Positions 5,779 through 26,315 of a DNA stretch of 33,456 nt are shown here, in pieces. Position numbers and translations under genes: made by a program. Each line of letters opens with the position of its first letter. The stretch's first letter is position 1. Under the pieces are notes generated by a model. That model searched no databases. It was given only the letters and a program-made list of their open reading frames with translations, and was not told the origin of the DNA. The DNA is from a virus, in IMG/VR virus record IMGVR_UViG_3300009082_000957, positions 1 through 33,456 of that record; one strand, 5' to 3'.

Positions 5779-6276
5779 ATGACAAAAGATGAACAGAAAT
5801 TATTTAACGATATGCATAAATTTTTATCAGACATGAAAAGAGAAAATGAAATATTTAAAAATTTACTTTCTGAGAAAGTACTTCAAATTGATGAAAAAGT
5901 AAATGCAAAATATATACCTATCAATTTAGAAAATGATATCTTGCATAGTGTGCAAGATGGAATTAATAAGATTCTGCATGATATATTAAGTAGTTATAAT
6001 TCTCCACTTTCTAAACTTGTTTCAAAAGTAATAGAAAAACATAAAGAAACAATTGAAGAGGCGTTTGACGCAGTTGTTTCTGAAGAAATAAATAATAATA
6101 ATTTTTCAGATAGTATTAAACAAGAGTTTATTAAAAAGATTGCTAAGTCTGTTTTATCTGGCATTGATGGAACAATTGATAAAACTGTTAATGCTATGAA
6201 GCAAGATTCTATATTCAGGGCGAAGTTAACATTGATGATAAATATTTTAATAGATGAATGGAAAGGCGGTAAATAA
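5779..6276 (+). CDS. Unknown helical protein preceding SbcD-SbcC
   Basis: This 165-residue protein is predicted almost wholly helical from its residue pattern and has an AGAAGGAG ribosome site. Its stop codon shares a base with the start of the SbcD-SbcC gene (TAATG), so translation is coupled. There are no Cys clusters, nucleotide-binding loops or membrane segments. A helper or regulatory role for the nuclease-ATPase is inferred from coupling only. Confidence 0.7.
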   Translation: MTKDEQKLFNDMHKFLSDMKRENEIFKNLLSEKVLQIDEKVNAKYIPINLENDILHSVQDGINKILHDILSSYNSPLSKLVSKVIEKHKETIEEAFDAVVSEEINNNNFSDSIKQEFIKKIAKSVLSGIDGTIDKTVNAMKQDSIFRAKLTLMINILIDEWKGGK

Positions 6277-9200
6277 TGAAACAAATTAAACTTTTATCTT
6301 TTGCAGATTTGCATAATTGCAAAGATTACGCAGATAAGTGCTCAAAAATTCTTGACTTTGTAGGAGAAAAAGCATTACAAATTAAGCCGGATTTTATTAC
6401 AATATCAGGCGATATAAATAATAATGCCATTTTAAATTCTGATAGCCACCGGTTACCCGAGTTTAAGACTAAACTTGATTTTTTATCTGGTATAGCAAAA
6501 ATTATTATGATATATGGCACACCTTCCCATGATGCTGCTGGAAGCCTGGAAATATTCAGGAATGATAAAACAATATTTATTGTGCGTCCAGAGAAGCCTC
6601 TAATAATTGACGGCTGTATATTTTATTGTATTCCTGATTATCGCGTATGTGATAGCGATAAGAAATCTCATAAAGAAGCCGGGCAAGATATGAATCAATA
6701 TCTTTTTGACTTATGTAAAATGTATGGTGACCATAGGAAAGTAAATGTAGATTTGCCGGCCGTTATACTTGGGCATGGTAATGTAAGAAGCACAGCAACA
6801 GAAAACCATGAAGCGATAAAAAGAGCGTCCATATATTTGACAGAACAAATACTTGCAGAGACACAAGCAAATGCTATCTTGTTTGGGCATATTCATCAAC
6901 GAATAAATTTTGCAACAATACCCGGTTGCTATCTTGGCGGGATGGCTCATAACTGGAAAGACTTGAATTATAAACCTGCTATTCAGGAGGTAATAATTAA
7001 TAAAACAGGGGAGGCAGAATTTAAATCACATGAAATACCGTTTATTCCCAGGCGTATAGAAATTAGTAGTTTCATTATTAATACTGTCCCTACTAATGAA
7101 TTTAATGGTGATATGGTATGCCTCAAAAAAAAGAAAAATGAACCAGGGACAAAGGCTGATTTAATTGAAGCCGGGGCTCATTCAGACAGTAAGGTTGTTA
7201 TAATACCAGAAGTTAAAAACATTATTCGTAAAAAAGATATGGATAAACTGGAAGGCTATAAAGAGCTATATAAAGCCTATCAAATAGATGCTACAGAAGA
7301 GGAGCTTGCCATATGCGATGAAATTGAAAAGATAGAAATAAAAGAAGGACGGCTATCTGTAAAGAAAATTATTAAGCCTCTTTCTACACATATAAAGGGC
7401 CTTAAACAATTATTTAACGGAATTGGCAAAGAAGAAATATATATAGATTGGTCAAAACATAATGGCATATTAGGATTGCTTGCACCAGGCGGGATGGGTA
7501 AATCAGCGATTGTAGGATGTATCCCTCCTCATTCTGCTTGTATAACCCAGGGCAATTCGCTTGCTTCAATGTTCGCAGATGGTGGATTTATTATTCAGAA
7601 TTGGCAGGTAAATAATCAAGTCATAACGACAGAAAGGCTCTTTAAGATCAATAATAAAAAATCAGAAACATCTTACAAGGTGTCTATAGATGGAGTAAAG
7701 CTTGATGTTGCATCTGGCTCTATTTCATCATATGATAATTATATTAACTTTGCTTTTGGGAGTCCTCGGGTGTGCGCTTTAACTGTTCTGCGTTCACAAT
7801 TCCCCAATTTCTCTACCTGGAATAAAGTAGCAATTAACCCGGATATTTTTACTATGCCTAATGCAGAGTTTAAAACAATTGTTGCGGAGTTAACAAATTG
7901 CTCAAAAGAATTTGCCTATTTATATTGCAAAAACAATCTTGATCAAAAAACAGTCGAACTAAAATCAATTGAAACAACAATAAACGGGATTAAGGATAAT
8001 ATCGGGAACAAGAAAGAGATAGAAGAAACTATCATTAAATTAAAAGAGCTGCTCAAGGAATTAGAGAATGATTTATTAATAAACAATAGTATCCTATTAC
8101 AAAAGAAAAGCGAAATTGATATTTTAAATACGGAGTTTCTTGAATCAGAAAAAGCACGATCTGCAATGATTTTGTATGATAGTCAGCTTGAAACAAACAA
8201 TATAAAACTTTCTGAACTTAAAGCATTAATAAATCGCAGACCAATTATAACGGAAGAGCAAATAAAAGGTAATATCTTTAAGATAGAAAATCAAAAAGCT
8301 AAGCAAGAAGAAGCTGAAAAAAGAAATAACGAGTTACAAAAAAAGCACACGGAGGTATTGATTAGTTACAATACAGAATTATCTGCATTTAATAAATTGA
8401 AAAAAGAGCACGAAGAGAAGGAAAGAGTAATAATCAATTTAATGAATGAAAGGAATTCTGAACTTAAAAACCAATATACCCAAAGGCTTATTACTTATAA
8501 CAATGAATATAAAGAATATAGAAAAAAACAATATGAATTTGATATACAAAAGGCAAATATTGATAAAGAATTAAATCAGATAGTACAGCATAAAGAATCT
8601 TTGTTAAAAGAAATAAAGGACGCTGAAAGCAAAATAGAATTTTACAATAAACCATGTGAATATTGTGGGAAAATCGCATCCTCATCAAAGACGCATATAG
8701 AAACTTTAAATAATAGCATTGTCCTCTCTATGGGCGAGATTGATAAGGCAGATGAGAAAATTTATTTTAAAACTAATAAATTACAATTTTTTGTATTTGA
8801 TAAGGCAGAACCTAAAGAGCCCATTGAGCCAACATATGAAAAACAATCTGACCTTAAAGAATTACAAGATTTGTCTTTCAATGCAATTGAGCCTACTATG
8901 CCCATAGAACCTGAGTATGAACAGATAGATAAAACAATTCAAATTACACTTGATATAGAAAATAAAAAATTATCTGATTATCAATTAACCATAGAAAAGA
9001 TAAAAAATGCTGAATTAGAATATTCTAAAATTGCAGCAGAAAATGAAGAAATAAATATCAAACATTTTGCAGAATCTTGTAAGGTTAAAATAAACTTGTC
9101 TTCATCGCTCCATGAGAAGAAAAAGGAAATCCTTAATACAGAGACACGTGGCGAAGAGATAGCAGGTAAAATTAGTAATGAAAAAGCTAATATAAAATCA

Positions 9201-9785
9201 TGTTCTGATAAAATAACAGATATTGACGAAGCAAACGCAAAATTATTAAAACTTGAAGGTAATCTTGAAGCAAGCAAGAAAGAATATCTTAAATGGGACA
9301 GGCTGTCTGCCGCATGGCACAGGGATGGTATTCCTGCAATGATCCTTGAGAATATAGCACCTACTATAGATCAAGGTATAAATGATCTTCTGCAAGTATA
9401 TTATCCGAAACTTATGATACAAACAGAGACAATAAGTAAATATGCAAACAAAAAAGAGTTTTATGAAAATTATCACATAGATATAATAAATAATGATACC
9501 GGGAACATACAGCCGTTTAATTCATTATCAGGGGAAGAAAGAGATTTTATCGCGGCAGCATTTAGAGAGATATGCAGAAATATATATGAAGGGAATTCTA
9601 ATATTATTTATCAGCTTGGGATAGATGATGAGCCAGATGCTCATGTATCTGAAGAAAGGCTTCAAGATTTCTGGAATATGAAAAGACAGCTTGATGAAGG
9701 GAAAGAGCGATTAAGAATCTGTATAAGTCATTCGCCTTTGGTCAAGACAATCTTTGATAATAGTATAGACCTAATGTCTATATAG
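6276..9785 (+). CDS. Single-chain SbcD-SbcC (Mre11-Rad50-like) nuclease-ATPase
   Basis: The 1169-residue protein joins both halves of the Mre11-Rad50 complex. Residues 1-260 are a calcineurin-like phosphoesterase: D11-L-H13, G45-D46, GTPSHD (81-86), GHG (H167) and GHIH (H205, H207), the metal ligands of SbcD. Residues from about 375 are Rad50/SbcC-like: a P-loop (APGGMGKS, K409), long charged coiled coil from about 555 to 1010, a zinc hook C794-E-Y-C797, signature SLSGEER (about 1083), an acidic Walker B (D1117-D-E1119) and a terminal ISHSP loop (H1152). The family resects and trims DNA ends. Related phage systems such as T4 gp46/gp47 use two chains; here one frame carries all motifs. Confidence 0.9.
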   Translation: MKQIKLLSFADLHNCKDYADKCSKILDFVGEKALQIKPDFITISGDINNNAILNSDSHRLPEFKTKLDFLSGIAKIIMIYGTPSHDAAGSLEIFRNDKTIFIVRPEKPLIIDGCIFYCIPDYRVCDSDKKSHKEAGQDMNQYLFDLCKMYGDHRKVNVDLPAVILGHGNVRSTATENHEAIKRASIYLTEQILAETQANAILFGHIHQRINFATIPGCYLGGMAHNWKDLNYKPAIQEVIINKTGEAEFKSHEIPFIPRRIEISSFIINTVPTNEFNGDMVCLKKKKNEPGTKADLIEAGAHSDSKVVIIPEVKNIIRKKDMDKLEGYKELYKAYQIDATEEELAICDEIEKIEIKEGRLSVKKIIKPLSTHIKGLKQLFNGIGKEEIYIDWSKHNGILGLLAPGGMGKSAIVGCIPPHSACITQGNSLASMFADGGFIIQNWQVNNQVITTERLFKINNKKSETSYKVSIDGVKLDVASGSISSYDNYINFAFGSPRVCALTVLRSQFPNFSTWNKVAINPDIFTMPNAEFKTIVAELTNCSKEFAYLYCKNNLDQKTVELKSIETTINGIKDNIGNKKEIEETIIKLKELLKELENDLLINNSILLQKKSEIDILNTEFLESEKARSAMILYDSQLETNNIKLSELKALINRRPIITEEQIKGNIFKIENQKAKQEEAEKRNNELQKKHTEVLISYNTELSAFNKLKKEHEEKERVIINLMNERNSELKNQYTQRLITYNNEYKEYRKKQYEFDIQKANIDKELNQIVQHKESLLKEIKDAESKIEFYNKPCEYCGKIASSSKTHIETLNNSIVLSMGEIDKADEKIYFKTNKLQFFVFDKAEPKEPIEPTYEKQSDLKELQDLSFNAIEPTMPIEPEYEQIDKTIQITLDIENKKLSDYQLTIEKIKNAELEYSKIAAENEEINIKHFAESCKVKINLSSSLHEKKKEILNTETRGEEIAGKISNEKANIKSCSDKITDIDEANAKLLKLEGNLEASKKEYLKWDRLSAAWHRDGIPAMILENIAPTIDQGINDLLQVYYPKLMIQTETISKYANKKEFYENYHIDIINNDTGNIQPFNSLSGEERDFIAAAFREICRNIYEGNSNIIYQLGIDDEPDAHVSEERLQDFWNMKRQLDEGKERLRICISHSPLVKTIFDNSIDLMSI

Positions 9786-11474: not shown

Positions 11475-11885
11475 ATGAAGACTGATACAAAAATTTTATT
11501 AACAAGGTGGGCAATTTTTTTGTCTGTACTTACCGTTACATTGGTTTTGTTTAATGGGTTTTATTTTAAATTTACAAAAACGATCGATTATCTATACATG
11601 GCTATTGTTAGCGCTCTAATTATATCAAGCTTTGTTACTGGCTTATGTTTAGCAAATATTAAAAAGCCGCTTTCCCCCATTGCTTATTTCTATGAACAGG
11701 AAGCAGGAACACTCCGGCTACTTGCTAGGGAAGCTATAAGTATAGCGGTACTCAAGGATATGAAATTAGCTGATAAAGACAAGGGAATGGAAAAACAGAT
11801 TGACAATTTATATCAACATATATATAATGATATAAAAGATAGTATGGATAAACAAACTACTTTAATAAAGGAGAGTAAGAAATAA
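11475..11885 (+). CDS. Two-helix membrane protein with cytoplasmic tail
   Basis: This 136-residue protein has two hydrophobic segments, at about 8-31 and 39-60, joined by a short polar loop. A charged, helical tail of about 75 residues follows. AGGAG precedes the start and the stop shares a base with the next start (TAATG). The topology is that of a small inner-membrane hairpin protein. The family is unrecognised; holin-like roles are possible for such shapes, but it is not near lysis genes and the long tail is unlike a holin. Confidence 0.7.
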   Translation: MKTDTKILLTRWAIFLSVLTVTLVLFNGFYFKFTKTIDYLYMAIVSALIISSFVTGLCLANIKKPLSPIAYFYEQEAGTLRLLAREAISIAVLKDMKLADKDKGMEKQIDNLYQHIYNDIKDSMDKQTTLIKESKK

Positions 11886-12271
11886 TGAGCAATGAAATAG
11901 AAATTATATATGTTGCAAGTCCATTCAGGCCGATATATAAAAAATCAAAAATTCTTTTTTGGGGGTTATTAATAAATAACATAAAGTATAACAGGCTATT
12001 AAAGCGGAATATTAAATATGCTATTAAATGTGTCAAATGGTGCGTTAATGAAAGTTATTCTCCATATGCTCCGCATTTAGTTTTGCCATTAGTGCTTGAT
12101 GAAGAAAAGGAAAAAGAAAGAAATAAAGGGATGCGCCTTTCTTCATCATTTATAAAAAAATGCGATGCTGTAATTATGTTTACTGATTATGGAAAATCAG
12201 ATGGCATGATTGCTGAAGAGAAAACAGCTAGAGAAAATAACATCGAAGTAATAGAAATTAAAATATTGTAA
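11885..12271 (+). CDS. DUF7768/deoxyribosyltransferase-fold-like protein
   Basis: This 128-residue protein fits the pattern of small phage proteins of the DUF7768/DUF4406 kind. It opens with a strand, IIYVASPFRP. A helix NIKYAIKCVKWCVNESYSPY follows, then APHLVLP. The protein ends with a glycine-containing SDGMIAEEKTA stretch after CDAVIMF. The fold is that of nucleoside 2-deoxyribosyltransferases, which cleave or transfer the N-glycosidic bond of nucleosides. A glutamate in the GMxxE position (E216-equivalent by pattern) is consistent with that catalytic site. A role in nucleotide or NAD-related metabolism is plausible, and it lies just upstream of a nicotinamidase-like gene. Substrate is unknown. 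Confidence 0.6.
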   Translation: MSNEIEIIYVASPFRPIYKKSKILFWGLLINNIKYNRLLKRNIKYAIKCVKWCVNESYSPYAPHLVLPLVLDEEKEKERNKGMRLSSSFIKKCDAVIMFTDYGKSDGMIAEEKTARENNIEVIEIKIL

Positions 12272-12468: not shown

Positions 12469-12497
12469 TTGACATGATTTAAATATATATATATTAG
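12469..12497 (+). promoter_or_regulatory. Possible promoter of the nicotinamidase-kinase cassette
   Basis: TTGACA (12469-12474) is exact, but the AT repeat after it offers only imperfect -10 boxes: TATATT at a 15-base spacing or TATTAG at 17. The expected start would fall almost on the ribosome site, giving a very short leader, so the call is tentative. Confidence 0.35.
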
Positions 12498-12508
12498 AGG
12501 AGGAATTT

Positions 12509-13342
12509 ATGAAATACGATCTTTTATTAATTGACCCACAAGTAGATTTTTGTGATCCTTCTGGTGCCTTGTTTGTGCCAGGTGCAGATGACGACAGCAA
12601 AAAACTCGCGGCTATGATTTTAAGAGTAAAATCAAAAATAAATGATATTCATGTGACGTTAGACACGCATCATTATTTTGATATAGCTCATCCGTGCTTC
12701 TGGCTTGATCAATCAGGGAGACATCCTGATCCATTTACTTTGATTTCTTATTCCGATATCAAGGTAGGTAAATGGAAAACATCAATTCCTGCATACCAAA
12801 ACAGAAAAACATTGCAAGCGCACGGGATTGATCGGGATGGCGCAGAAGAGTATGTATTGTCCTTGGAGAAAAATAACAGGTATATGCTTTGTATATGGCC
12901 GCCACATTGTTTAATCGGGAGTATAGGCGCATCAATCCAGCCGGATGTTTACAGTGCTCTCCAGACATGGGAAACTGAAAAGGTTACGGCCTTTGTTGAT
13001 TATGTCACAAAAGGAAGTAATTTTTGGACAGAGCATTATTCGGCTGTACAGGCAGATGTTCCCGATCCTAGTGATCCGACAACACAATTAAATATTGGAT
13101 TGATTGAATTACTCAAGCAAGTCGATTTGATAGGAATATCAGGGCAAGCACTTTCTCATTGTGTCGCAAATACGATCCGGGATATTTCTAATAATTTTGG
13201 GGATGAGAATATAAAGAAATTTGTATTGCTTAAAGATACAAGTTCTAATGTTCCGAGATTTGAAAAGCTTGGCGAAGATTTCATAACTGAAATGACATCA
13301 AGGGGAATGCAAGTAATGAACTCTACGGAGTTTTTAGCATAA
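12509..13342 (+). CDS. Nicotinamidase-like cysteine hydrolase
   Basis: The 277-residue protein follows the isochorismatase/nicotinamidase pattern. LLIDPQVDFC places the catalytic Asp at D9. LDTHHYFDIAHP supplies metal ligands D52, H54 and H61. WPPHCLIGS matches the WPxHC segment of nicotinamidases, and the nucleophile is C218 in ISGQALSHCV. The family hydrolyses nicotinamide to nicotinate and ammonia in NAD salvage. At 277 residues it is longer than PncA (about 190-215), with extra sequence between 65 and 130 and around 175-190. The start has AGGAGGAA. It heads the cassette with vWA, PP2C and kinase genes. Substrate could also be another amide. Confidence 0.8.
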   Translation: MKYDLLLIDPQVDFCDPSGALFVPGADDDSKKLAAMILRVKSKINDIHVTLDTHHYFDIAHPCFWLDQSGRHPDPFTLISYSDIKVGKWKTSIPAYQNRKTLQAHGIDRDGAEEYVLSLEKNNRYMLCIWPPHCLIGSIGASIQPDVYSALQTWETEKVTAFVDYVTKGSNFWTEHYSAVQADVPDPSDPTTQLNIGLIELLKQVDLIGISGQALSHCVANTIRDISNNFGDENIKKFVLLKDTSSNVPRFEKLGEDFITEMTSRGMQVMNSTEFLA

Positions 13343-13351
13343 GGAGGGATT

Positions 13352-14086
13352 ATGCCTATTATTACAAATGAAGAAATAAATAAAATACCTGGTAGTAATT
13401 TTCAATTTTCGGCAGTTAAGCCAGAAAATTTAGGAGCTACTGAATATACTCTTGTTACGGTAGTTATTGATGTTACTGGAAGCGTATATATGTTTTCTAA
13501 AGCTTTATTAACTATGTTACAAGAAGTTATCAAGGCTTGTCAAAAAAATCCACGATCTGAAAATCTTATGGTTAGGGTTGCTACGTTTAACAATCGCATA
13601 CATGAAGAGCATGGCTTTAGATTACTATCTGATATTAATCCGGCAGACTATACAGAATTTAACTGTGACGGAAATACAGCTTTGTATGATGCAACTTATT
13701 CATCTATTGCAGCTACACTTGCCTATGCGGATACTTTAATGAAAAATGATTTTAATGTTAATGGTTGTATTTATATTATTACAGACGGAGAGGATAATGA
13801 ATCAAACACTACAAGAAAAATGATCGCTGATGAAATCTTAAAATCCAAAAAAGGCGAATTAATTGAATCTCTTATTACTGTTCTAATCGGAATAAATACT
13901 GCTGGCTGCAAAAATTATCTTGATAATTTTAAAGACGAAGCTGGACTAACGCAATTCATAGATATGGGCGAGGTTACACCTGGTAAACTTGCAAAGCTTG
14001 CAGGATTCGTATCTAAATCCATAAGTAGCCAAAGCCAGTCTGTTGGTACTGGATCGGCAGCAGCGGCTACGCCTTTAATTTTTTAA
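13352..14086 (+). CDS. vWA domain protein, TerY-like
   Basis: This 244-residue protein carries a full metal-ion-dependent adhesion site. VVIDVTGSV gives D40, T42 and S44, DGNTALYDA gives T109, and ITDGEDNES gives D145. The flanking strands fit a complete vWA fold. TerY-type vWA proteins act inside the cell with a PP2C phosphatase and a protein kinase in so-called TerY-P triads, for example E. coli yegL-pphC-yegI, and the next two genes here are exactly those types. The C-terminus (from residue 222) is Ser/Ala/Gly-rich and flexible. AAGGAGG precedes the start, 10 bases after the nicotinamidase. The family is secure; what it binds is unknown. Confidence 0.85.
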   Translation: MPIITNEEINKIPGSNFQFSAVKPENLGATEYTLVTVVIDVTGSVYMFSKALLTMLQEVIKACQKNPRSENLMVRVATFNNRIHEEHGFRLLSDINPADYTEFNCDGNTALYDATYSSIAATLAYADTLMKNDFNVNGCIYIITDGEDNESNTTRKMIADEILKSKKGELIESLITVLIGINTAGCKNYLDNFKDEAGLTQFIDMGEVTPGKLAKLAGFVSKSISSQSQSVGTGSAAAATPLIF

Positions 14087-14100
14087 AATAGGAGAGGAAC

Positions 14101-14898
14101 ATGCTATTAGATAATGTTATAACGATTGGAAAATCACATAATATATGTGAAGATTATTCTTTAATCGGAGATAAGGATAATCCGTTCTTATGCGTATCAG
14201 ATGGCTGTTCCTCTTCTAAAAATACAGATATGGGCGCCCGGTTATTATGCTGGGCGTTTAAGGATTTTTTAACTTCATGGCATGATGAAATAAAAATATT
14301 TAATAATAAAAGCGTCGGCAGATATATCATTTCTCAAGCCCAAAAAATAGCCAAAGAAATAAATCTTAATTTTAACGCATTAGATTCTACTCTTATCACT
14401 ACAAGAATATTTAATAATGATATTATGATTGATTTTTTTGGCGATGGATATCTAATAGTAAAATATAAAGCTGGCGCCGTTTATTTATTTAAAATAAGCT
14501 ATACAGAAAACGCTCCGTTTTATTTAAATGTATTCAATGATCCAGTGATAACCAAAAAATGGCAGACGTTATATCCTGATAATATATTACAAATTGAAAT
14601 ATTCGATATTTGTGATAATGATATGAAAATACAAACCCCGTCATCTCTGGATTATTATTCTTTTAATTGGGATTGCGAATCAATAGATTCTGTTTTTATA
14701 GCTACAGACGGATTGGGCTCTTTTATAAATAATACCGGCGCCTCTCTTGGCATTAAAGAAATTGTAAAAGATTTACTTGATATTAAAATCCGCAACGGGG
14801 AATATTTAAAACGAAGAATGAAAAAGATGCTATTTAAATATCAAGCATTAGGTTACACTAACTATGATGATATTGCAGTTGCATCTATAATATTTTAG
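14101..14898 (+). CDS. PP2C-type protein phosphatase
   Basis: The 265-residue protein has the key acidic positions of metal-dependent PPM/PP2C phosphatases. CEDYS gives E17 and D18, VSDGCSS gives D34 and G35, FFGDGYL lies near 120, ATDGLGS gives D203, and YDDIAVASI at the C-terminus gives D256/D257. These bind the two metal ions that activate water for removal of phosphate from Ser/Thr. It begins 15 bases after the vWA gene behind AGGAGAGG and is followed 9 bases later by the kinase. The phosphatase-kinase pair suggests a reversible phosphorylation switch. Compact atypical PP2Cs of this kind belong to TerY-P triads. Confidence 0.85.
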   Translation: MLLDNVITIGKSHNICEDYSLIGDKDNPFLCVSDGCSSSKNTDMGARLLCWAFKDFLTSWHDEIKIFNNKSVGRYIISQAQKIAKEINLNFNALDSTLITTRIFNNDIMIDFFGDGYLIVKYKAGAVYLFKISYTENAPFYLNVFNDPVITKKWQTLYPDNILQIEIFDICDNDMKIQTPSSLDYYSFNWDCESIDSVFIATDGLGSFINNTGASLGIKEIVKDLLDIKIRNGEYLKRRMKKMLFKYQALGYTNYDDIAVASIIF

Positions 14899-14906
14899 GA
14901 ATTAAA

Positions 14907-16580
14907 ATGAGTATAAATATTGTAGTAGATGGAAAAGAAATTAAACTTGATAAACAAGATTATATTCAGGAAGGCGGCGAGGGAATTATTTATGCTAAAG
15001 GCGGGATAGTCTATAAAATATACCATAATTTGCAAGATGTTTTGCCAGTTAAAAAATATAATGAATTGTCGGTATTAAATAAAGATAATATCTTAATACC
15101 TCGAAAATTTATACAGGATAAAAAAAATAATCCCATAGGGTTTACCATGCGGCAAGTATCAAATACCGTTCCACTTGCAAGAGTATTTACAACAGGCTAT
15201 AGAGACAGAAATAATATCACTCCTGACAAATCAATTTCATTAGTTCAAAATATGGCAGAAACAATCCAGTACATTCATGAAAAAAATATTTTAATTATCG
15301 ACGGGAATGAATTTAATTATTTAATTGATGGCAAAGATTTTATAATTCCATATTTTATAGATGTTAATTCTTATCAAACCCCATCATTTAAGGCAACTGT
15401 TATTATGCCATCGATTAGAGATTGGCTAAATAGTTCATTTACAAAAGAAAGCGACTGGTTTTCTTTTGCAATTATAGCCACCCAAATATTTATTGGTATT
15501 CATCCATTTAAAGGATCACATAAAGACTTTGATCGAACGGATTTAAAAGGAAGAATGACAAAATACAAATCAATATTTAATAAAGAAGTTAATTTGCCGC
15601 CCATCACAAGGGATTTCGGGTTGATACCAACAGAATACAGAGACTGGTTTATATCATTATTTGAGAAAGGCAAAAGAAGTCCGGCGCCAACAATTAAAAC
15701 CAAACTAATTCAAAAAGCGCAAACAATAATCGTGACAGGAAAGGATAAATTTAGTATAGATAATATTTTTAGCACTACTGATATAATTACTGGGTGTGAT
15801 TTTATTTTAGGAAATAAAATTATTTATACAAGCAAAAATATTTACTTGAATAAAAATAAATATTTGTTACCATCAAGCACTGCTGGAATAATTTATTGTG
15901 ATAATATCCCGTATTTGATTGACATAGAAAATGGAAAGTTAAAAGTTGATAGCTTGCAGTCTAATAAAATTATCGATTGTAATATTTTAGCTGAAAAAAA
16001 ACTTATTATTAATAATAGATTATATATTATAGCGGGCGGCAAGTTTTCTGAAATCAATATTAAAACTTTTAATAATAAATTATTTATAAGTTTCAAAACC
16101 GCATGGGATATTCTGGCCAATTCTATAAATATCCTCAGAAATATAATTTCTTCTGATATTTTAGGCACCTGTTATTTATATATTCCTTATCAGGAAAATT
16201 ATTGCAGCATAATACCTATCCCTGAATTGAATAAACACAAAATAATAGATGCAAAATATGAAAACAGGGTATGTGTTTTGATAACTTTTTTTGATTCGGT
16301 TTATAATAGAGTAACTATAAAATTTAACGAGTCTATGAATGCTTATAGTTTACAAAGGGAAAATGATATAATTTTAACAAGTGTTAATTTTATATGCTTG
16401 CCTAATGGGGTATATCTAATTTATACCGGCGAAGGTGATTTAATAATAGGCAACAAAAAAATAGATCAAATCAAAATATTAACTAATATAAAAATTGATA
16501 ATATTATGAATTTATGTCATAATGGAAATGACGTATATTACTATAATAATAATAATTTGTTCGCACTAAAGATGAAATAA
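14907..16580 (+). CDS. Ser/Thr protein kinase-like protein with beta-rich C-terminal domain
   Basis: This 557-residue protein opens with a kinase fold. The glycine loop is GGEGIIY (G23-G26) and the ATP lysine K37 lies in VYKIY. The catalytic loop has D132 and N137 (NILIIDGNEFNYL), with HRD altered to IID. A metal Asp D152 lies in FIDVNSY, replacing DFG. SDWFSFAIIATQIF forms the F-helix Asp segment. The catalytic Asp and Asn are kept, so it may be active despite altered surrounding motifs. Residues about 280-557 are a run of short strands separated by turns, resembling a beta-propeller sensor. It is the third member of the vWA-PP2C-kinase set. Confidence 0.8.
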   Translation: MSINIVVDGKEIKLDKQDYIQEGGEGIIYAKGGIVYKIYHNLQDVLPVKKYNELSVLNKDNILIPRKFIQDKKNNPIGFTMRQVSNTVPLARVFTTGYRDRNNITPDKSISLVQNMAETIQYIHEKNILIIDGNEFNYLIDGKDFIIPYFIDVNSYQTPSFKATVIMPSIRDWLNSSFTKESDWFSFAIIATQIFIGIHPFKGSHKDFDRTDLKGRMTKYKSIFNKEVNLPPITRDFGLIPTEYRDWFISLFEKGKRSPAPTIKTKLIQKAQTIIVTGKDKFSIDNIFSTTDIITGCDFILGNKIIYTSKNIYLNKNKYLLPSSTAGIIYCDNIPYLIDIENGKLKVDSLQSNKIIDCNILAEKKLIINNRLYIIAGGKFSEINIKTFNNKLFISFKTAWDILANSINILRNIISSDILGTCYLYIPYQENYCSIIPIPELNKHKIIDAKYENRVCVLITFFDSVYNRVTIKFNESMNAYSLQRENDIILTSVNFICLPNGVYLIYTGEGDLIIGNKKIDQIKILTNIKIDNIMNLCHNGNDVYYYNNNNLFALKMK

Positions 16581-16609
16581 TACATGATTTATATATTAAG
16601 GAGAATCTA

Positions 16610-16810
16610 ATGCAAAGATCAGATTATAATCCACCATGTAGAGCGGCAAGACCATTACACAAGATTATAATACATTTTGGTGAATCCGGCAATAATAAAG
16701 CTATTTGCGGGAATTTAACAAGCAGGTTAATAACTGATAGAGACAAATTTTTAAAAATTCCAAATGCTTGCAAAAAATGTATAGCAGCCCTGGAGGCAAA
16801 AAATGTGTGA
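16610..16810 (+). CDS. Small zinc-binding-like protein
   Basis: The protein of 66 residues has KIIIHFGES, then ICGNLTS, then NACKKCIAAL. That is a His, a single Cys-Gly and a final C-x-x-C, a layout seen in many small phage proteins thought to bind one zinc ion. AAGGAG precedes the start. The gene overlaps the next by eight bases. Function is unknown; it may bind nucleic acid or another protein of the cassette. Confidence 0.65.
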   Translation: MQRSDYNPPCRAARPLHKIIIHFGESGNNKAICGNLTSRLITDRDKFLKIPNACKKCIAALEAKNV

Positions 16811-16961
16811 TAATTGTAATATTGATGGCATGGAACATCCCTATTGTGATATATGTATTAGGAAAGAATATGAAGCCGATAAAAATATTACAGTAAGAGA
16901 AATAATCGTACAAAAGCTTATTAAAGATAATAAGTCAAAACACATAAAGGGAAAAACTTAA
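16803..16961 (+). CDS. Small treble-clef-like zinc protein
   Basis: A 52-residue frame starts at 16803, inside the end of the preceding gene with GGAGG upstream. It has two C-x-x-C pairs, C2/C5 and C15/C18 (MCDNCNIDGMEHPYCDICIR), followed by a basic helix. That pattern fits a small zinc ribbon or treble clef. It is the last gene before the hairpin at 16979-17010. Function is unknown. Confidence 0.6.
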   Translation: MCDNCNIDGMEHPYCDICIRKEYEADKNITVREIIVQKLIKDNKSKHIKGKT

Positions 16962-16978: not shown

Positions 16979-17010
16979 CCCTGGGAAGGATCAACGCTGC
17001 CTTCCCAGGG
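16979..17010. terminator. GC-rich hairpin between convergent genes
   Basis: A perfect 11-base stem (CCCTGGGAAGG / CCTTCCCAGGG) closes a 10-base loop, between the last plus-strand gene (stop at 16961) and the minus-strand gene ending at 17026. Position suggests a two-way terminator, but neither strand has a T tract after the stem, so it may instead block read-through by another means or protect RNA ends. Confidence 0.55.
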
Positions 17011-19157: not shown

Positions 19158-19853
19158 ATGAAAGCAGTTGAATATATTAATAAATATAAATTAGAAACTG
19201 TTGTCAATTTTAATAAACCTGAATTTATCAAGGATTTTAATTCAGATTTTATTACTGAATTAACAAAACGGAAAAATAAAACAGGTTATATCCCTATTAC
19301 TGGTTTTGAGAATGCAGCAAAATGCATGAGAGATAAATGGGAAGCAATCAATCTTCGACTAGAGAATAAACTGGATGAAAAATTATGGAAATATTTCTGG
19401 AAAATATATGTTGCTGATATAAGGGATGAATTATTTCCAGAAGAAATGGCAAAAAGAAAAGAATTAAAAGAAGAAATAAAACGACGCAAACAGGAATGGG
19501 AAGATTTGGATAACCATAATAGTCATTATTTTAACGGATTTAACTCAAGAGTTGATCATTCTTTTTTTAAATTATTTTCAGCCTTTATGGGATTTTCTTT
19601 TGATAATTTTCTGAAAGACTTTATCAGTACAAAGTATCGGGCACCAAGAGAAATATATAACCAATATTTTTATATACTTTCTCTTGATATAGATACTGCA
19701 AGTATTGACGATGTTAAAACAGCATATAGAAAATTAAGCAATATTTATCATCCTGATAAAGGCGCTATAAATTATAATGATTTTATAAAAATTACAGAAG
19801 CAAAAAATAAATGTTTAGAATATTTTGTTATTATTGGGGAAGGGAGTAAATAA
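19158..19853 (+). CDS. Protein with C-terminal J domain
   Basis: In this 231-residue protein the last 65 residues form a DnaJ-type J domain: YFYILSLDIDTASIDDVKTA, YRKLSNIYHPDKG with H198-P199-D200, then a closing helix. The HPD tripeptide is the part of J proteins that stimulates ATP use by Hsp70/DnaK. The N-terminal 165 residues are helical, charged and unique, with no Gly/Phe-rich linker or zinc domain. Phage J-domain proteins may direct host DnaK to phage targets. The stop shares a base with the next start (TAATG). The J domain is clear; its client is unknown. Confidence 0.85.
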   Translation: MKAVEYINKYKLETVVNFNKPEFIKDFNSDFITELTKRKNKTGYIPITGFENAAKCMRDKWEAINLRLENKLDEKLWKYFWKIYVADIRDELFPEEMAKRKELKEEIKRRKQEWEDLDNHNSHYFNGFNSRVDHSFFKLFSAFMGFSFDNFLKDFISTKYRAPREIYNQYFYILSLDIDTASIDDVKTAYRKLSNIYHPDKGAINYNDFIKITEAKNKCLEYFVIIGEGSK

Positions 19854-20084: not shown

Positions 20085-21713
20085 ATGAATAAATTAACAG
20101 ATTATATAGAAAATGATACTTTTTATCCTACGCCTAACAATATTGTTCGTAGATTATTATCAGGAATAGAAATGGATACCATTGAGGATGTCCTAGAGCC
20201 TTCGGCAGGCAGTGGCGATATTGCAATGCACTTTATACCTAAGGATCAATATGATAATATCAGAAAAAATATTAGAATCGATTGTATAGAAATTAATTCT
20301 GATTTGCGAAATGTTTTAAGGGGTAAAGGGCTAAGAGTTATCTATGATGATTTTTTAACTTTCTATACTGCTAAGCGCTATGATTTAATTGTGATGAATC
20401 CACCCTTCAATAAAGGTGTTGATCACTTGCTTCATGCTATTGAATTATGTGTGCATGGTGGTAAAATTAGGTGTATTTTGAATGCTGCTACTATAGATCG
20501 TTGTTTTGATATTGAAAGTACCGGGAAATTAAAAATATTATCAAATACGCTTAAAGAATTAAACGCTAATATTGAATATGTAGATAATGCGTTTAAAGCG
20601 GCTGATAAAAAAACCAATGTACGGATTGCAATCATTTTTATTAATATCCCGGATGATCAAGATGAAATTAAAAGCGAATTGTTTGAACGTTTGCAAAAAG
20701 ATGATAGTTATAATGTAGTTGATAATATTAGCAATGAGAATACCCAGGTAACTTATAGTGATTTTGTTAAAGCTATTGTAAGTCATTATAGGTTTGAAAT
20801 TGAATTAGGTGCAAGCCTGATAAAAGAATTTTTTGCAACTGCTGGTAAAATAAATAAAGAATTCAAGCCGGACAAATATGATGATGCAAAAAGTTTGTTT
20901 ACTTTAAAGATTGGTTATGATGAAGTAGGGGGCGTGAAGTTAGCTATTAATGCACTTGTTAAAGCTATAAGATCAAAATACTGGGCCGCCCTTTTTAATT
21001 CAGAATCATTTGATAAAATTATGACAACCACTATTCGTGATAAGTTTATAGACAGAATAAAAGATTTATGTAATTATGATTTTAATGTTTTCAATATTGA
21101 AGAAATTCAATCAGAAATTAAACGTGATTACTCAAAGACAATAGAAAAAACTATATTGAATTTATTTGATATGTTATCAAGAAAACATAATTGGGATGAT
21201 AAGGATTCGCCTAATGTGCATTATTACAATGGATGGAAAACAAATAAGGCATGGAAAATAAATCATAAATGCATTATCCCTATGATAGGCATGGATACTT
21301 ATAGAAGATGGGAATGTGTAAGGGAGTTATCGGATATTGAAAAAACATTTAATTATTTATCCGGTCAAAGCAACAAGGATTGTACACTTTCTGAAATACT
21401 GGATAATGCAAAGAAAAATTGTCAAACAAAAAAAATACAATGTAAATATTTTAAATTAACATTTTATCTAAAAGGTACTTGCCATATAGAATTTACCGAT
21501 ATGGGATTACTTGATAAATTTAATATTTTTGGAAGTCAACGGGAAAATTGGTTGCCTCCTGGGTTTGGTAAAAAATCGTATAATATGATGAACCATGAAG
21601 AAAAATCTGTTGTTGATAATTTCTGTGGAGAAAATAAATATAAGGAATTTATGAATAAGCAGGATTATTATATTGTTAATGATGTTCAGTTGTTAACTGA
21701 TAATAATTATTAA
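20085..21713 (+). CDS. DNA methyltransferase with DUF4942 domain
   Basis: The 542-residue protein has an N-terminal N6-adenine-type methyltransferase. FYPTPNNIVRRLL is followed by AdoMet motif I (LEPSAGSGDIA, residues 37-47) and catalytic NPPF at 105-108. From about residue 235 the sequence follows DUF4942, a domain found fused or adjacent to phage methyltransferases. It includes HYYNGWKTNKAWKIN, a CKYFKLTFYLKGTCHIEF stretch and NIFGSQRENWLPPGFGKK. Gamma-class order (motif I before NPPF) differs from the enzyme at 10620, so the phage has two unrelated methyltransferases. It likely modifies phage DNA; target site unknown. Confidence 0.88.
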   Translation: MNKLTDYIENDTFYPTPNNIVRRLLSGIEMDTIEDVLEPSAGSGDIAMHFIPKDQYDNIRKNIRIDCIEINSDLRNVLRGKGLRVIYDDFLTFYTAKRYDLIVMNPPFNKGVDHLLHAIELCVHGGKIRCILNAATIDRCFDIESTGKLKILSNTLKELNANIEYVDNAFKAADKKTNVRIAIIFINIPDDQDEIKSELFERLQKDDSYNVVDNISNENTQVTYSDFVKAIVSHYRFEIELGASLIKEFFATAGKINKEFKPDKYDDAKSLFTLKIGYDEVGGVKLAINALVKAIRSKYWAALFNSESFDKIMTTTIRDKFIDRIKDLCNYDFNVFNIEEIQSEIKRDYSKTIEKTILNLFDMLSRKHNWDDKDSPNVHYYNGWKTNKAWKINHKCIIPMIGMDTYRRWECVRELSDIEKTFNYLSGQSNKDCTLSEILDNAKKNCQTKKIQCKYFKLTFYLKGTCHIEFTDMGLLDKFNIFGSQRENWLPPGFGKKSYNMMNHEEKSVVDNFCGENKYKEFMNKQDYYIVNDVQLLTDNNY

Positions 21714-24459: not shown

Positions 24460-25308
24460 TCACATTGTTAATTCAACATTTGCTTTTAAAACAGCTGCAT
24501 CAAAACTAGCGGCAGCGTATCCACCTCCAGTCCTTCTTGCCCATAAAAACTTACCAGTTGCAGTATTAGCGGCAGTATACCCGGCTTTTAGTAAATCGGG
24601 ATCAGCTTGATCATCATAACTACCTATATCATATATTACGGTAACCGCATTATTTATTATTTGTGTTGATACGGATTTTATCTTAAATATTTCAGAACCT
24701 AAATAATGAGACGCTGTATATAGATTATTAGCATTCATATTCCATTTAGTACTTGGCGTATATTCAACCCATCTTCTATAACAATCTTGACACCAATCAT
24801 AATACATTTTTGCTTCATTCGTTGGGCTATCAAGATAAACATAGCCCCTGTACCCATTAACCATATTTTGACAATTTATAATTCCGCCTAATACTCCTGT
24901 AGCGTCCTTCCATGCTATGCCTAAAAGCCTTCTTGTTGCTATATGGTAAAATCCTTGTTTGGCTGTAACATAAGAAGCTGTTAAAGTAGCAGGGAGAAGA
25001 GCCGGGTCATTGTCTGCTAAAGCTGTAGCTGATAATGTAACAGCTGTACCAGATACTGTCATTTCTATTTTATACCAAAGACTGTTCGCGCCAGTTAATG
25101 TTATAGCCGTTACTGTATCAATTATAGATACCCCCTCATTAGTACCATCATTTATACCAACACGGCCCGGAGACAAGGTTACTGTTCCTGCATTATCATA
25201 AAGATAACTTGTATATTCACCAACGCTGTTTTTTATTTGAGCAAGCAAATAAGACGCCCAAACAGAATTATCCCCCCCAGCAATAGGATTGCGGAAAAAT
25301 TGGCTCAT
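24460..25308 (-). CDS. Tail fibre-like protein 1
   Basis: This 282-residue protein starts at 25308 (MSQFFRNPIAGGDNSVWASY). AGGAGG lies inside the last codons of the upstream endonuclease, and the start overlaps its stop by ATGA. Residues 1-160 are paralogous to fibre 2, sharing VTLSPGRVGIN, QGFYHIATRRLLGIAWKD and LGGIINCQN. The C-terminal part is different, with WCQDCYRRWVEY, and lacks the long beta-rich tail of fibre 2. A shared N-terminal attachment domain with divergent C-terminal receptor-binding parts is usual for fibre paralogues. Function is inferred from place and paralogy. Confidence 0.75.
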   Translation of the reverse strand: MSQFFRNPIAGGDNSVWASYLLAQIKNSVGEYTSYLYDNAGTVTLSPGRVGINDGTNEGVSIIDTVTAITLTGANSLWYKIEMTVSGTAVTLSATALADNDPALLPATLTASYVTAKQGFYHIATRRLLGIAWKDATGVLGGIINCQNMVNGYRGYVYLDSPTNEAKMYYDWCQDCYRRWVEYTPSTKWNMNANNLYTASHYLGSEIFKIKSVSTQIINNAVTVIYDIGSYDDQADPDLLKAGYTAANTATGKFLWARRTGGGYAAASFDAAVLKANVELTM

Positions 25309-26315
25309 AGACCTTTCCTCCTTTTCCAATAAGCTTTCGTTGCTTCACTCAATTTGTTTCTTGTTATATTTGATATACATGGTTTATTCTTAGCCGCTAT
25401 ACTCATTTTTAATCTACTTTCTTCTGATATTATTTTATTTTTATTTGATTCTGATATTTTTTTTCTTGTTTCTTCAGAATGGGAATATCCCTTCATTTTT
25501 TCTAACCTTTTTAAGATAGATTCTTTTGAAAGTTTTCTGCCAGTGGCAGCTTTCCCAATATTGATTTTTGCTTCTTCGGAATGTTTATATCCCTTTTTTG
25601 AATTTTTTAGTTTTTCTCTTATATCATCTCTTTTAGCAGGATTATTTTCTCCTGCCATTCTTTCTCTTAATCTCTCTTTAAATTCTATATTGTTATGCAT
25701 TTTTTTAAAATTATCACTTATTCTTTTTCGTTCTTCTAATGTATATTCTCTTTTTTTATTTGCTAATAATATTTTATTTTGTATTTCTTCTTCAGTCATT
25801 TTTAAATAATCTCCATAATATGCCCAAACCAATCTATTTCCATTTTTACCTTTCCCGGCACTATTCCTTTTCCCTTTACAAACAGCAGGTATTGTTTTTC
25901 TTAATCTATCGCCGAGAACCATTCCGCAATCATAAATCGTTTTTGTATTCAGGCATACAATTTTTTTTGCAGCATTTGATTGTCCTAAAGTTTTTCTCAT
26001 TTTGGCAGCACCCATTTTTTGCTTTACTATATCAGAAACTTTTTTATTTTTATTCCCACCAGTTTCAAGATTATATCCATTAGGGTATAATGAGTTTATT
26101 CTTTTAATCATTTCTATTTCATAATAATCTAATAAATTCTCTGGCAAATAATAAATATATTGATTAAAATTATACTGGCCATATTTTTTTAAAGCTCTGC
26201 TTATAAGCATATCGCTCTCCATATGTCTTTTAAATCTGCGTTTAAAAGATTGTATAGTCTGTCCAACATAACATTTACTATTTATTTTATTTTCTAATAC
26301 ATAAACACATGCCAT
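25305..26315 (-). CDS. GIY-YIG homing endonuclease with NUMOD-type repeats
   Basis: The 336-residue protein begins with the GIY-YIG nuclease fold: VYVLENKINSKCYVGQT carries the paired strands, with arginines in FKRRFKRH and a closing YNLETGG. From about residue 200 come repeated helix-rich modules (HSEEAKINIGKAATGRKLSK; HSEETRKKISESNK), like the NUMOD3 DNA-binding repeats of phage homing endonucleases. These are selfish genes that cut allelic sites to spread. It lies between the hub and fibre 1 genes, and its last codons form the ribosome site and the start overlap of fibre 1. Intact by reading; no intron is evident. Confidence 0.92.
   Translation of the reverse strand: MACVYVLENKINSKCYVGQTIQSFKRRFKRHMESDMLISRALKKYGQYNFNQYIYYLPENLLDYYEIEMIKRINSLYPNGYNLETGGNKNKKVSDIVKQKMGAAKMRKTLGQSNAAKKIVCLNTKTIYDCGMVLGDRLRKTIPAVCKGKRNSAGKGKNGNRLVWAYYGDYLKMTEEEIQNKILLANKKREYTLEERKRISDNFKKMHNNIEFKERLRERMAGENNPAKRDDIREKLKNSKKGYKHSEEAKINIGKAATGRKLSKESILKRLEKMKGYSHSEETRKKISESNKNKIISEESRLKMSIAAKNKPCISNITRNKLSEATKAYWKRRKGL

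Follow-up and report, generated by a model that had tools for sequence, protein, structure and literature searches.

Four consecutive genes, located on the + strand at positions 12509–16580 of a 33,456-base IMG/VR virus record (the window, by which the whole analysed stretch is meant), are the subject of this work. The record is a fragment of a tailed-phage genome, and the genes encode a nicotinamidase-like metal-dependent amidase (NIC), a TerY/YegL-like vWA protein (VWA), a PP2C-type Ser/Thr phosphatase (PP2C) and a YegI-like Ser/Thr kinase fused to a C-terminal beta-propeller (KIN). They form a mobile cassette, co-inherited as a unit in about 100 huge phages and several bacteria, and probably serve the recycling of nicotinamide adenine dinucleotide (NAD) under the control of protein phosphorylation. 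The linkage of the cassette to NAD genes is strong in phages and in bacteria alike, and an operator-like palindrome stands upstream of NIC in bacterial loci.

Families and active sites of the cassette proteins

NIC (277 aa; 12509–13342), VWA (244 aa; 13352–14086), PP2C (265 aa; 14101–14898) and KIN (557 aa; 14907–16580) are separated by gaps of 9, 14 and 8 bp, in that order, each of which contains a purine-rich, ribosome-binding-like stretch. An earlier, sequence-only reading of the window had described four consecutive genes of these families; the arrangement was confirmed, and the four assignments held when they were examined by profile and structure prediction.

Concerning the curated models, PP2C matched Pfam PP2C_2 above the Pfam cut-off (6.4e-11), VWA and KIN gave matches below it (VWA_2, 0.0023, and Pkinase, 1e-5, respectively), and NIC had no significant match in Pfam. 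The best curated match of NIC was the NCBIfam nicotinamidase PRK11609 (1.8e-6), with a score of 27.9 bits that does not reach the family cut-off of 174. Since PP2C was thus the only protein placed firmly by curated models alone, NIC, VWA and KIN were placed with profiles built from their relatives and with structure models. The NIC family profile matched the yeast nicotinamidase Pnc1 at 1.7e-17, isochorismatases scoring weaker, and the NIC structure model (predicted local distance difference test, pLDDT, 96.1) recovered in a fold search 22 best PDB matches that were all nicotinamidases. The other three proteins matched the products of the E. coli genes yegI, pphC and yegL, with E-values that refer to one-sequence searches: KIN profile versus YegI, 2.5e-21 (hhalign probability 98.7%); PP2C versus PphC, 5e-7; and VWA versus YegL, 1e-8 (hhalign probability 95.7), in an alignment that takes in the C-terminal Ser motif.

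The conservation of residues was counted over 112 non-redundant four-gene loci. Nicotinamidases differ from isochorismatases in having a metal site (Asp, His, His). NIC carries this site (D52, H54, H61) together with the Asp-Lys-Cys catalytic triad (D9, K168, C218) of PncA/Pnc1 nicotinamidases: K168 and C218 were present in 112/112 loci, D9, D52 and H54 in 111/112 (one gap each) and H61 in 106/112. The metal ion-dependent adhesion site (MIDAS) of VWA is complete in the window (D40, T42, S44, T109, D145), in agreement with the sequence-only reading, and D40, S44, T109 and D145 were 100% conserved. The metal-binding Asp residues of PP2C (D18, D34, D115, D203, D256 and D257) were found in 111–112 of the loci, and the catalytic residues K37, D132, N137 and D152 of KIN in 108–110. 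By their sequence, all four proteins are predicted to be catalytically competent. VWA ends in the motif FVSxSxSSxSxxxG, whose serines 221, 223, 225 and 228 were kept in 93–100% of the loci and are candidate phospho-acceptors.

The AlphaFold2 model of KIN (pLDDT 91.8) consists of a kinase domain (residues ~1–265), a short low-confidence linker and a propeller of ~27 strands (280–557), to which we would assign about seven blades by our own count from the strand list. Foldseek matched this model to kinases and also to propellers, both designed ones and those of the WD40 type. The KIN profile covered the propeller half in the bacterial loci L287, L312, L327 and others, and part of it in L338, L347 and L356; YegI matched the profile in the kinase domain alone.

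As to the borders of the cassette, a candidate promoter was read from the sequence on the + strand at 12469–12509, where a perfect TTGACA precedes the start codon of NIC by 40 bp and is accompanied by an AT-rich −10 region; a consensus promoter scan did not list this candidate. Downstream of KIN, the two small Cys-rich open reading frames (ORFs) of the sequence-only reading do exist on the + strand (66 aa, 16610–16810; 52 aa, 16803–16961), and so does its hairpin (~16979–17010), which is stable (z −3.5). All three are judged to lie outside the conserved cassette. The 66-aa ORF had no tblastn relative in the fetched loci, in a search made with that ORF only, and the ORFs were rejected as cassette members; the hairpin lacks a T-tract and was rejected as a terminator.

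Co-inheritance and linkage to NAD genes

In the annotated phage collection, tblastn found relatives only in uncultured huge phages (595, 485 and 462 kb) and in a gut fragment. The four families were common to 20–22 of the first 22 neighbourhoods compared, the next gene family, NAD synthase (NadE), being present in 6; beyond these five, no family occurred in as many as 6. Three independent IMG/VR scans, which require conserved motifs of the four families, found all the genes on one strand in 61/67, 42/45 and 55/64 non-redundant viral loci. Because of this dependence on motifs, the figures describe the present cassette and not every vWA–PP2C–kinase set. The order was mostly NIC-VWA-PP2C-KIN, with a few rotated orders, in the midst of unrelated surrounding genes, and is far beyond chance. 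The pairwise distances of the four proteins were correlated, with Mantel r values of 0.51–0.73 and a highest permuted value of 0.26. Some loci have extra genes inserted among the four, which are then spread over up to 12 kb. In one locus (L011, 3822–4856) NIC is directly preceded by another, different vWA gene, and in a further one (L017, 12469–13389) an additional copy of NIC follows downstream of the cassette.

The phage nature of the carriers was checked with the terminase family phrog_2, after phrog_9, also a terminase family. A terminase was present in 14 of the 28 records searched, including three public huge phages and contigs of 536 and 619 kb, and none was found in three megaplasmids. 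The NIC tree requires 22 changes between virus, cell and plasmid (FastTree, midpoint root, with many weak forks), which points to repeated exchange of NIC between phages and bacteria. The neighbours of the window on this tree are two viral loci, L044 and L052, the latter from the same contig as L002.

Concerning the NAD genes in phages, at least one was found in the fetched flanks, within about 9 kb, of 49 of the 106 non-redundant viral loci (NAPRT in 40, NadE in 30, NrtR in 16, NadD in 3). NadE was encoded in 20 of the 21 cassette-bearing viral records of at least 200 kb, the exception being G008, and these large records mostly encode NadE, an NMNAT-type protein and NAPRT. In the whole phage collection NadE matched 50 of 50,697 records, several of which are huge phages without the cassette, so that its enrichment partly reflects genome size. 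In whole viral records, NadE lies nearer to NIC than expected (Fisher p 4e-4). A 619-kb phage (G023; L365, 77–11562) has NAPRT-NadE-NIC-VWA-PP2C-KIN-NadD-NrtR and an ADP-ribosylglycohydrolase gene (ARG) within 11.5 kb, that is, a complete Preiss–Handler pathway. In a 536-kb phage (G022; L366), genes for phosphoribosyl pyrophosphate (PRPP) synthetase and NadE directly precede NIC, and NrtR follows KIN. The 33-kb window, itself a fragment, contains no NAPRT, NadD or NadE.

The cassette, described as phage-borne in the sequence-only reading, is not a phage peculiarity: bacterial chromosomes and Variovorax megaplasmids carry it too. Among 75 non-redundant NIC loci from bacterial and archaeal assemblies, all four genes were found in 15 (in the same order in 14), NIC-VWA-KIN in 5, NIC-PP2C in 11 and NIC alone in 35. 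Some of these contigs may be phage DNA binned with the host, the archaeal ones probably so; the flanks of L338, L347 and L287 are cellular (e.g., ABC transporters, a molybdate transporter and MacB/FtsX). NrtR, identified by matches to NrtR_WHD (3e-26) and NCBIfam (1e-49), was present in 22 of the 75 loci and NAPRT in 8. The locus L338 is a clear operon, with NrtR divergent from NIC-VWA-PP2C-KIN-NAPRT-NadE. On 0.8-Mb Variovorax megaplasmids NIC-VWA stands beside a Nudix regulator, an NAD kinase and a macro-domain gene, with PP2C and KIN ~20 kb away, and on a 1.2-Mb Variovorax megaplasmid NIC, NAPRT, NadE and an NMNAT-type gene lie within ~4 kb. The connection with NAD metabolism suggested by the sequence-only reading was therefore recovered independently in phages (NadE, NAPRT, NadD, NrtR) and in bacteria (NrtR, NAPRT, NadE).

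Other NIC contexts were recorded in the same sample. The megaplasmids with NIC (L024, L025, L026, L027) are non-mobilizable, from Variovorax (0.8–1.2 Mb) and Vibrio (0.9 Mb). The arrangement in Competibacteraceae and relatives (L304, L314, L315, L319, L323, L337) is NIC-PP2C, lacking both vWA and kinase, with a SIR2-family gene directly upstream on the opposite strand. NIC stands alone in Spirochaetes and Poribacteria, each with its own conserved neighbourhood (L331, L334, L336, L339, L341, L350; and L318, L324, L325, L330, L333, respectively).

Between NrtR and NIC, bacterial loci contain the palindrome TTAGTTGCA-N3-TGCCACTAA, derived from six loci. When 82 bacterial and plasmid loci (1.11 Mb) were scanned on both strands with up to 5 mismatches allowed, 99 matches were obtained; 55 of these lay directly upstream of NIC, where 3 would be expected, and many sites were counted on both strands. 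Sites are located at 8883–8903 of L338, 8865–8885 of L347, 8911–8931 of L356, 4837–4880 of L317, 10965–10985 of L024 and in further bacterial loci, and the palindrome occurs also outside the derivation set (Thiotrichaceae, Competibacter and Variovorax SPNA7). In L338 it appears, in our reading, to overlap the −35 region. The layout is like that of mycobacteria, where a 23-bp NrtR palindrome lies between nrtR and nadABC (PMC6800001), and the palindrome upstream of NIC is likely an operator to which NrtR would bind. It also stands in loci of Thiotrichaceae and Competibacter that showed no NrtR gene next to NIC. An NrtR-type operator in phages was considered and rejected, as the single site, with 4 mismatches (LR745208, 136 bp upstream of NIC), was not above chance.

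The rest of the window is that of a tailed phage, with a tape-measure protein, minor head and head-tail connector proteins, RecT and an SbcC-like protein. SbcD and SbcC are usually encoded by two separate genes; here an ORF of 1169 aa (6276–9785) is an apparent fusion of an SbcD-like metallophosphoesterase with an SbcC-like part. A methyltransferase fused to DUF4942 is encoded at 20085–21713, a GIY-YIG type homing endonuclease at 25305–26315 (on the same strand as the structural genes), and a possible DnaJ co-chaperone at 19158–19853, where a J-domain-like stretch (YHPDKG) was read, without a profile, at the protein end. A DUF7768/DUF4406 gene (11885–12271) lies 240 bp 5′ of NIC. It was rejected as a cassette partner, having a weak relative in just one other phage; a gene with a nucleoside 2-deoxyribosyltransferase domain is found near NIC-VWA in the Variovorax megaplasmids.

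Proposed function and its alternatives

The interpretation that we favour, with some confidence but with reserve, is that the cassette subjects nicotinamidase-led (Preiss–Handler) NAD salvage to a Ser/Thr phosphorylation switch dedicated to it. Nicotinamide is a product of NAD-glycohydrolase reactions. NAD-cleaving enzymes would release it together with ADP-ribose, which is known to release the NrtR repressor (PMC12735969); in bacteria, the cassette operon would in this way be switched on while NAD is being cleaved. NIC would convert nicotinamide to nicotinate, and NAPRT, NadD and NadE, whose genes lie close by in many relatives, would rebuild NAD. KIN, with its beta-propeller as a sensor, and PP2C would set the phosphorylation state of VWA, most likely at the conserved C-terminal serines, and VWA would act as an adaptor that in turn binds or frees NIC or its pathway partners. 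Rapid post-translational control seems the simplest idea for a kinase-phosphatase pair that travels with the first enzyme of a pathway. In huge phages, the cassette may keep up the NAD supply through a long infection and NAD-hungry replication, plausibly against NAD-depleting defences. A phosphorylation switch was already proposed in the sequence-only reading and is still something that we infer; the sensing of a metal or of host stress, and a role in defence, which that reading had also considered, found no support in this analysis.

Several observations weigh against this interpretation. The kinase, phosphatase and nicotinamidase activities and the interactions of the proteins are predictions. 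In roughly half of the viral loci no NAD gene was found within 9 kb, NadE was absent from the available sequence of the window and of its closest relatives (106 and 114 kb), all of them fragments, and some huge phages that lack the cassette encode NadE as well (e.g., LR756501). NIC lacks a nearby triad in 35 of the 75 bacterial loci and can thus work alone, and the Ser tail of VWA is shared with YegL, which has no nicotinamidase partner, so that the switch itself is not specific to NAD.

A wider proposal, which we make more tentatively and would not yet defend as the probable one, is that the cassette represents an undescribed class of NAD homeostasis, common to bacteria and huge phages, in which a self-contained kinase-phosphatase-vWA switch directly controls nicotinamidase-led salvage and the propeller kinase senses a pyridine or ADP-ribose metabolite. 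If true, NAD salvage would be subject to protein phosphorylation, and phages would have a further NAD supply besides NARP1 and NadV/NadM/NadR.

It is possible, but rather unlikely, that the phage cassette acts mainly as a counter-defence module undoing the NAD depletion caused by host NADases (Thoeris, DSR, SIR2-type), its kinase arm being adapted to infection. This would be a special case of the NAD salvage switch and the Preiss–Handler counterpart of the NARP pathways. Phages are known to counter host defences by reconstituting NAD (NARP1, PMC12774641), the cassette is accompanied by NrtR and ADP-ribosylglycohydrolase in the 619-kb phage and by PRPP synthetase in the 536-kb phage, and SIR2 genes lie near NIC in Competibacter. 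On the other hand, the same cassette forms an NrtR-linked metabolic operon in bacterial chromosomes, so that a housekeeping role suffices, and PADLOC yielded only weak kinase matches. The assignment of KIN as a MADS or BREX kinase (MAD6, PglW) was rejected, the matches being short and weak.

It is improbable that signalling comes first, that is, that the triad is a stress or antiphage unit of the TerY-P type, with NIC as effector or signal processor acting on nicotinamide or another small amide without feeding NAD synthesis. TerY-P-like triads do occur together with restriction systems and are capable of antiphage action (PMC11090510), VWA and the kinase are of the TerY-P type, and a TerD gene lies near NIC on a Vibrio megaplasmid; however, the NadE, NAPRT, NadD and NrtR neighbours indicate synthesis rather than degradation, KIN has no zinc ribbon or OB module, and NadE alone reaches 6 neighbourhoods. 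As phage kinases do act on host proteins and inserted genes spread the four in some loci, KIN and PP2C might be directed at the host and functionally unlinked to NIC, the genes travelling together as phage cargo, but this is very improbable given the co-inheritance in otherwise unrelated genomes, the same order in bacterial chromosomes, the fixed catalytic residues and the putative operator of NAD-repressor type upstream of the bacterial cassette.

Comparison with known systems

NAD depletion is a common antiphage strategy, and for this reason a portable NAD-salvage switch that bacteria and phages exchange is relevant to both defence and counter-defence. Phage-encoded replenishment of NAD is known from NARP1/NARP2 and NadV-NadM-NadR, which start from ADP-ribose plus nicotinamide or from a nicotinamide phosphoribosyltransferase, whereas the route of the cassette begins with deamidation to nicotinate. 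A survey of jumbo phages (PMC7824862) and one of NAD and ADP-ribose functions in viruses (PMC9503650) describe phage NAD synthesis via NadV, NadM and NadR without mention of nicotinamidase, and a paper on huge phages (PMC7162821) does not mention NAD. The present data suggest that many huge phages carry a regulated Preiss–Handler route undescribed in the two surveys. In the literature searched, nothing was found that joins nicotinamidase, vWA, PP2C and kinase, a mention in the primary papers on Ter (2012), NrtR (2008) and NARP (2024) being possible.

With PncA/Pnc1 and the NrtR-controlled Preiss–Handler pathway, the cassette shares the catalytic triad, the metal site and the fold of the enzyme, the neighbours NAPRT, NadD, NadE and NrtR, and the operator-like palindrome. 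It differs in that NIC is a divergent family with ~60–90 extra residues and is accompanied by a vWA-phosphatase-kinase set, of which we found no account in the literature on NAD regulons. The mechanism can be approached in cultivable organisms through the bacterial operon, with its putative NrtR-type operator. Nearest in theme are the bacterial ARG-centred systems with an NrtR-like Nudix regulator and vWA chaperones (PMC9503650, section 3.8), which share a Nudix transcription factor, a vWA protein, a phosphatase and the ADP-ribose theme; they are built on ADP-ribosylglycohydrolase and rhodanese-type phosphatases, and no nicotinamidase, PP2C or kinase is described there.

To our knowledge, TerY-P-like triads are widespread and their inputs and outputs largely unknown. 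A triad of this kind with a constant metabolic partner has a concrete, assayable output, namely nicotinamidase activity and NAD level. The likeness to the TerY-P triad (E. coli yegL-pphC-yegI) noticed in the sequence-only reading stands as regards the three families, with their profile matches to YegL, PphC and YegI, and the Ser-rich C-terminal motif common to YegL and VWA; it fails as regards the kinase architecture. The kinases of TerY-P triads are reported to end in a zinc ribbon or, in a defence variant, in an OB fold (PMC11090510); KIN ends instead in an all-beta propeller, unrelated to the C-terminal half of YegI. Further differences are the nicotinamidase as constant fourth member and the genetic context: TerY-P triads are linked to Ter, restriction or DNA-processing genes, none of which was recurrent in the cassette neighbourhoods examined, whereas the cassette is linked to genes of NAD synthesis. 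As both the C-terminal module of the kinase and the genetic context differ, the cassette should not be filed as a plain TerY-P member; working like a TerY-P triad, it is best called an NAD-linked variant with a constant nicotinamidase.

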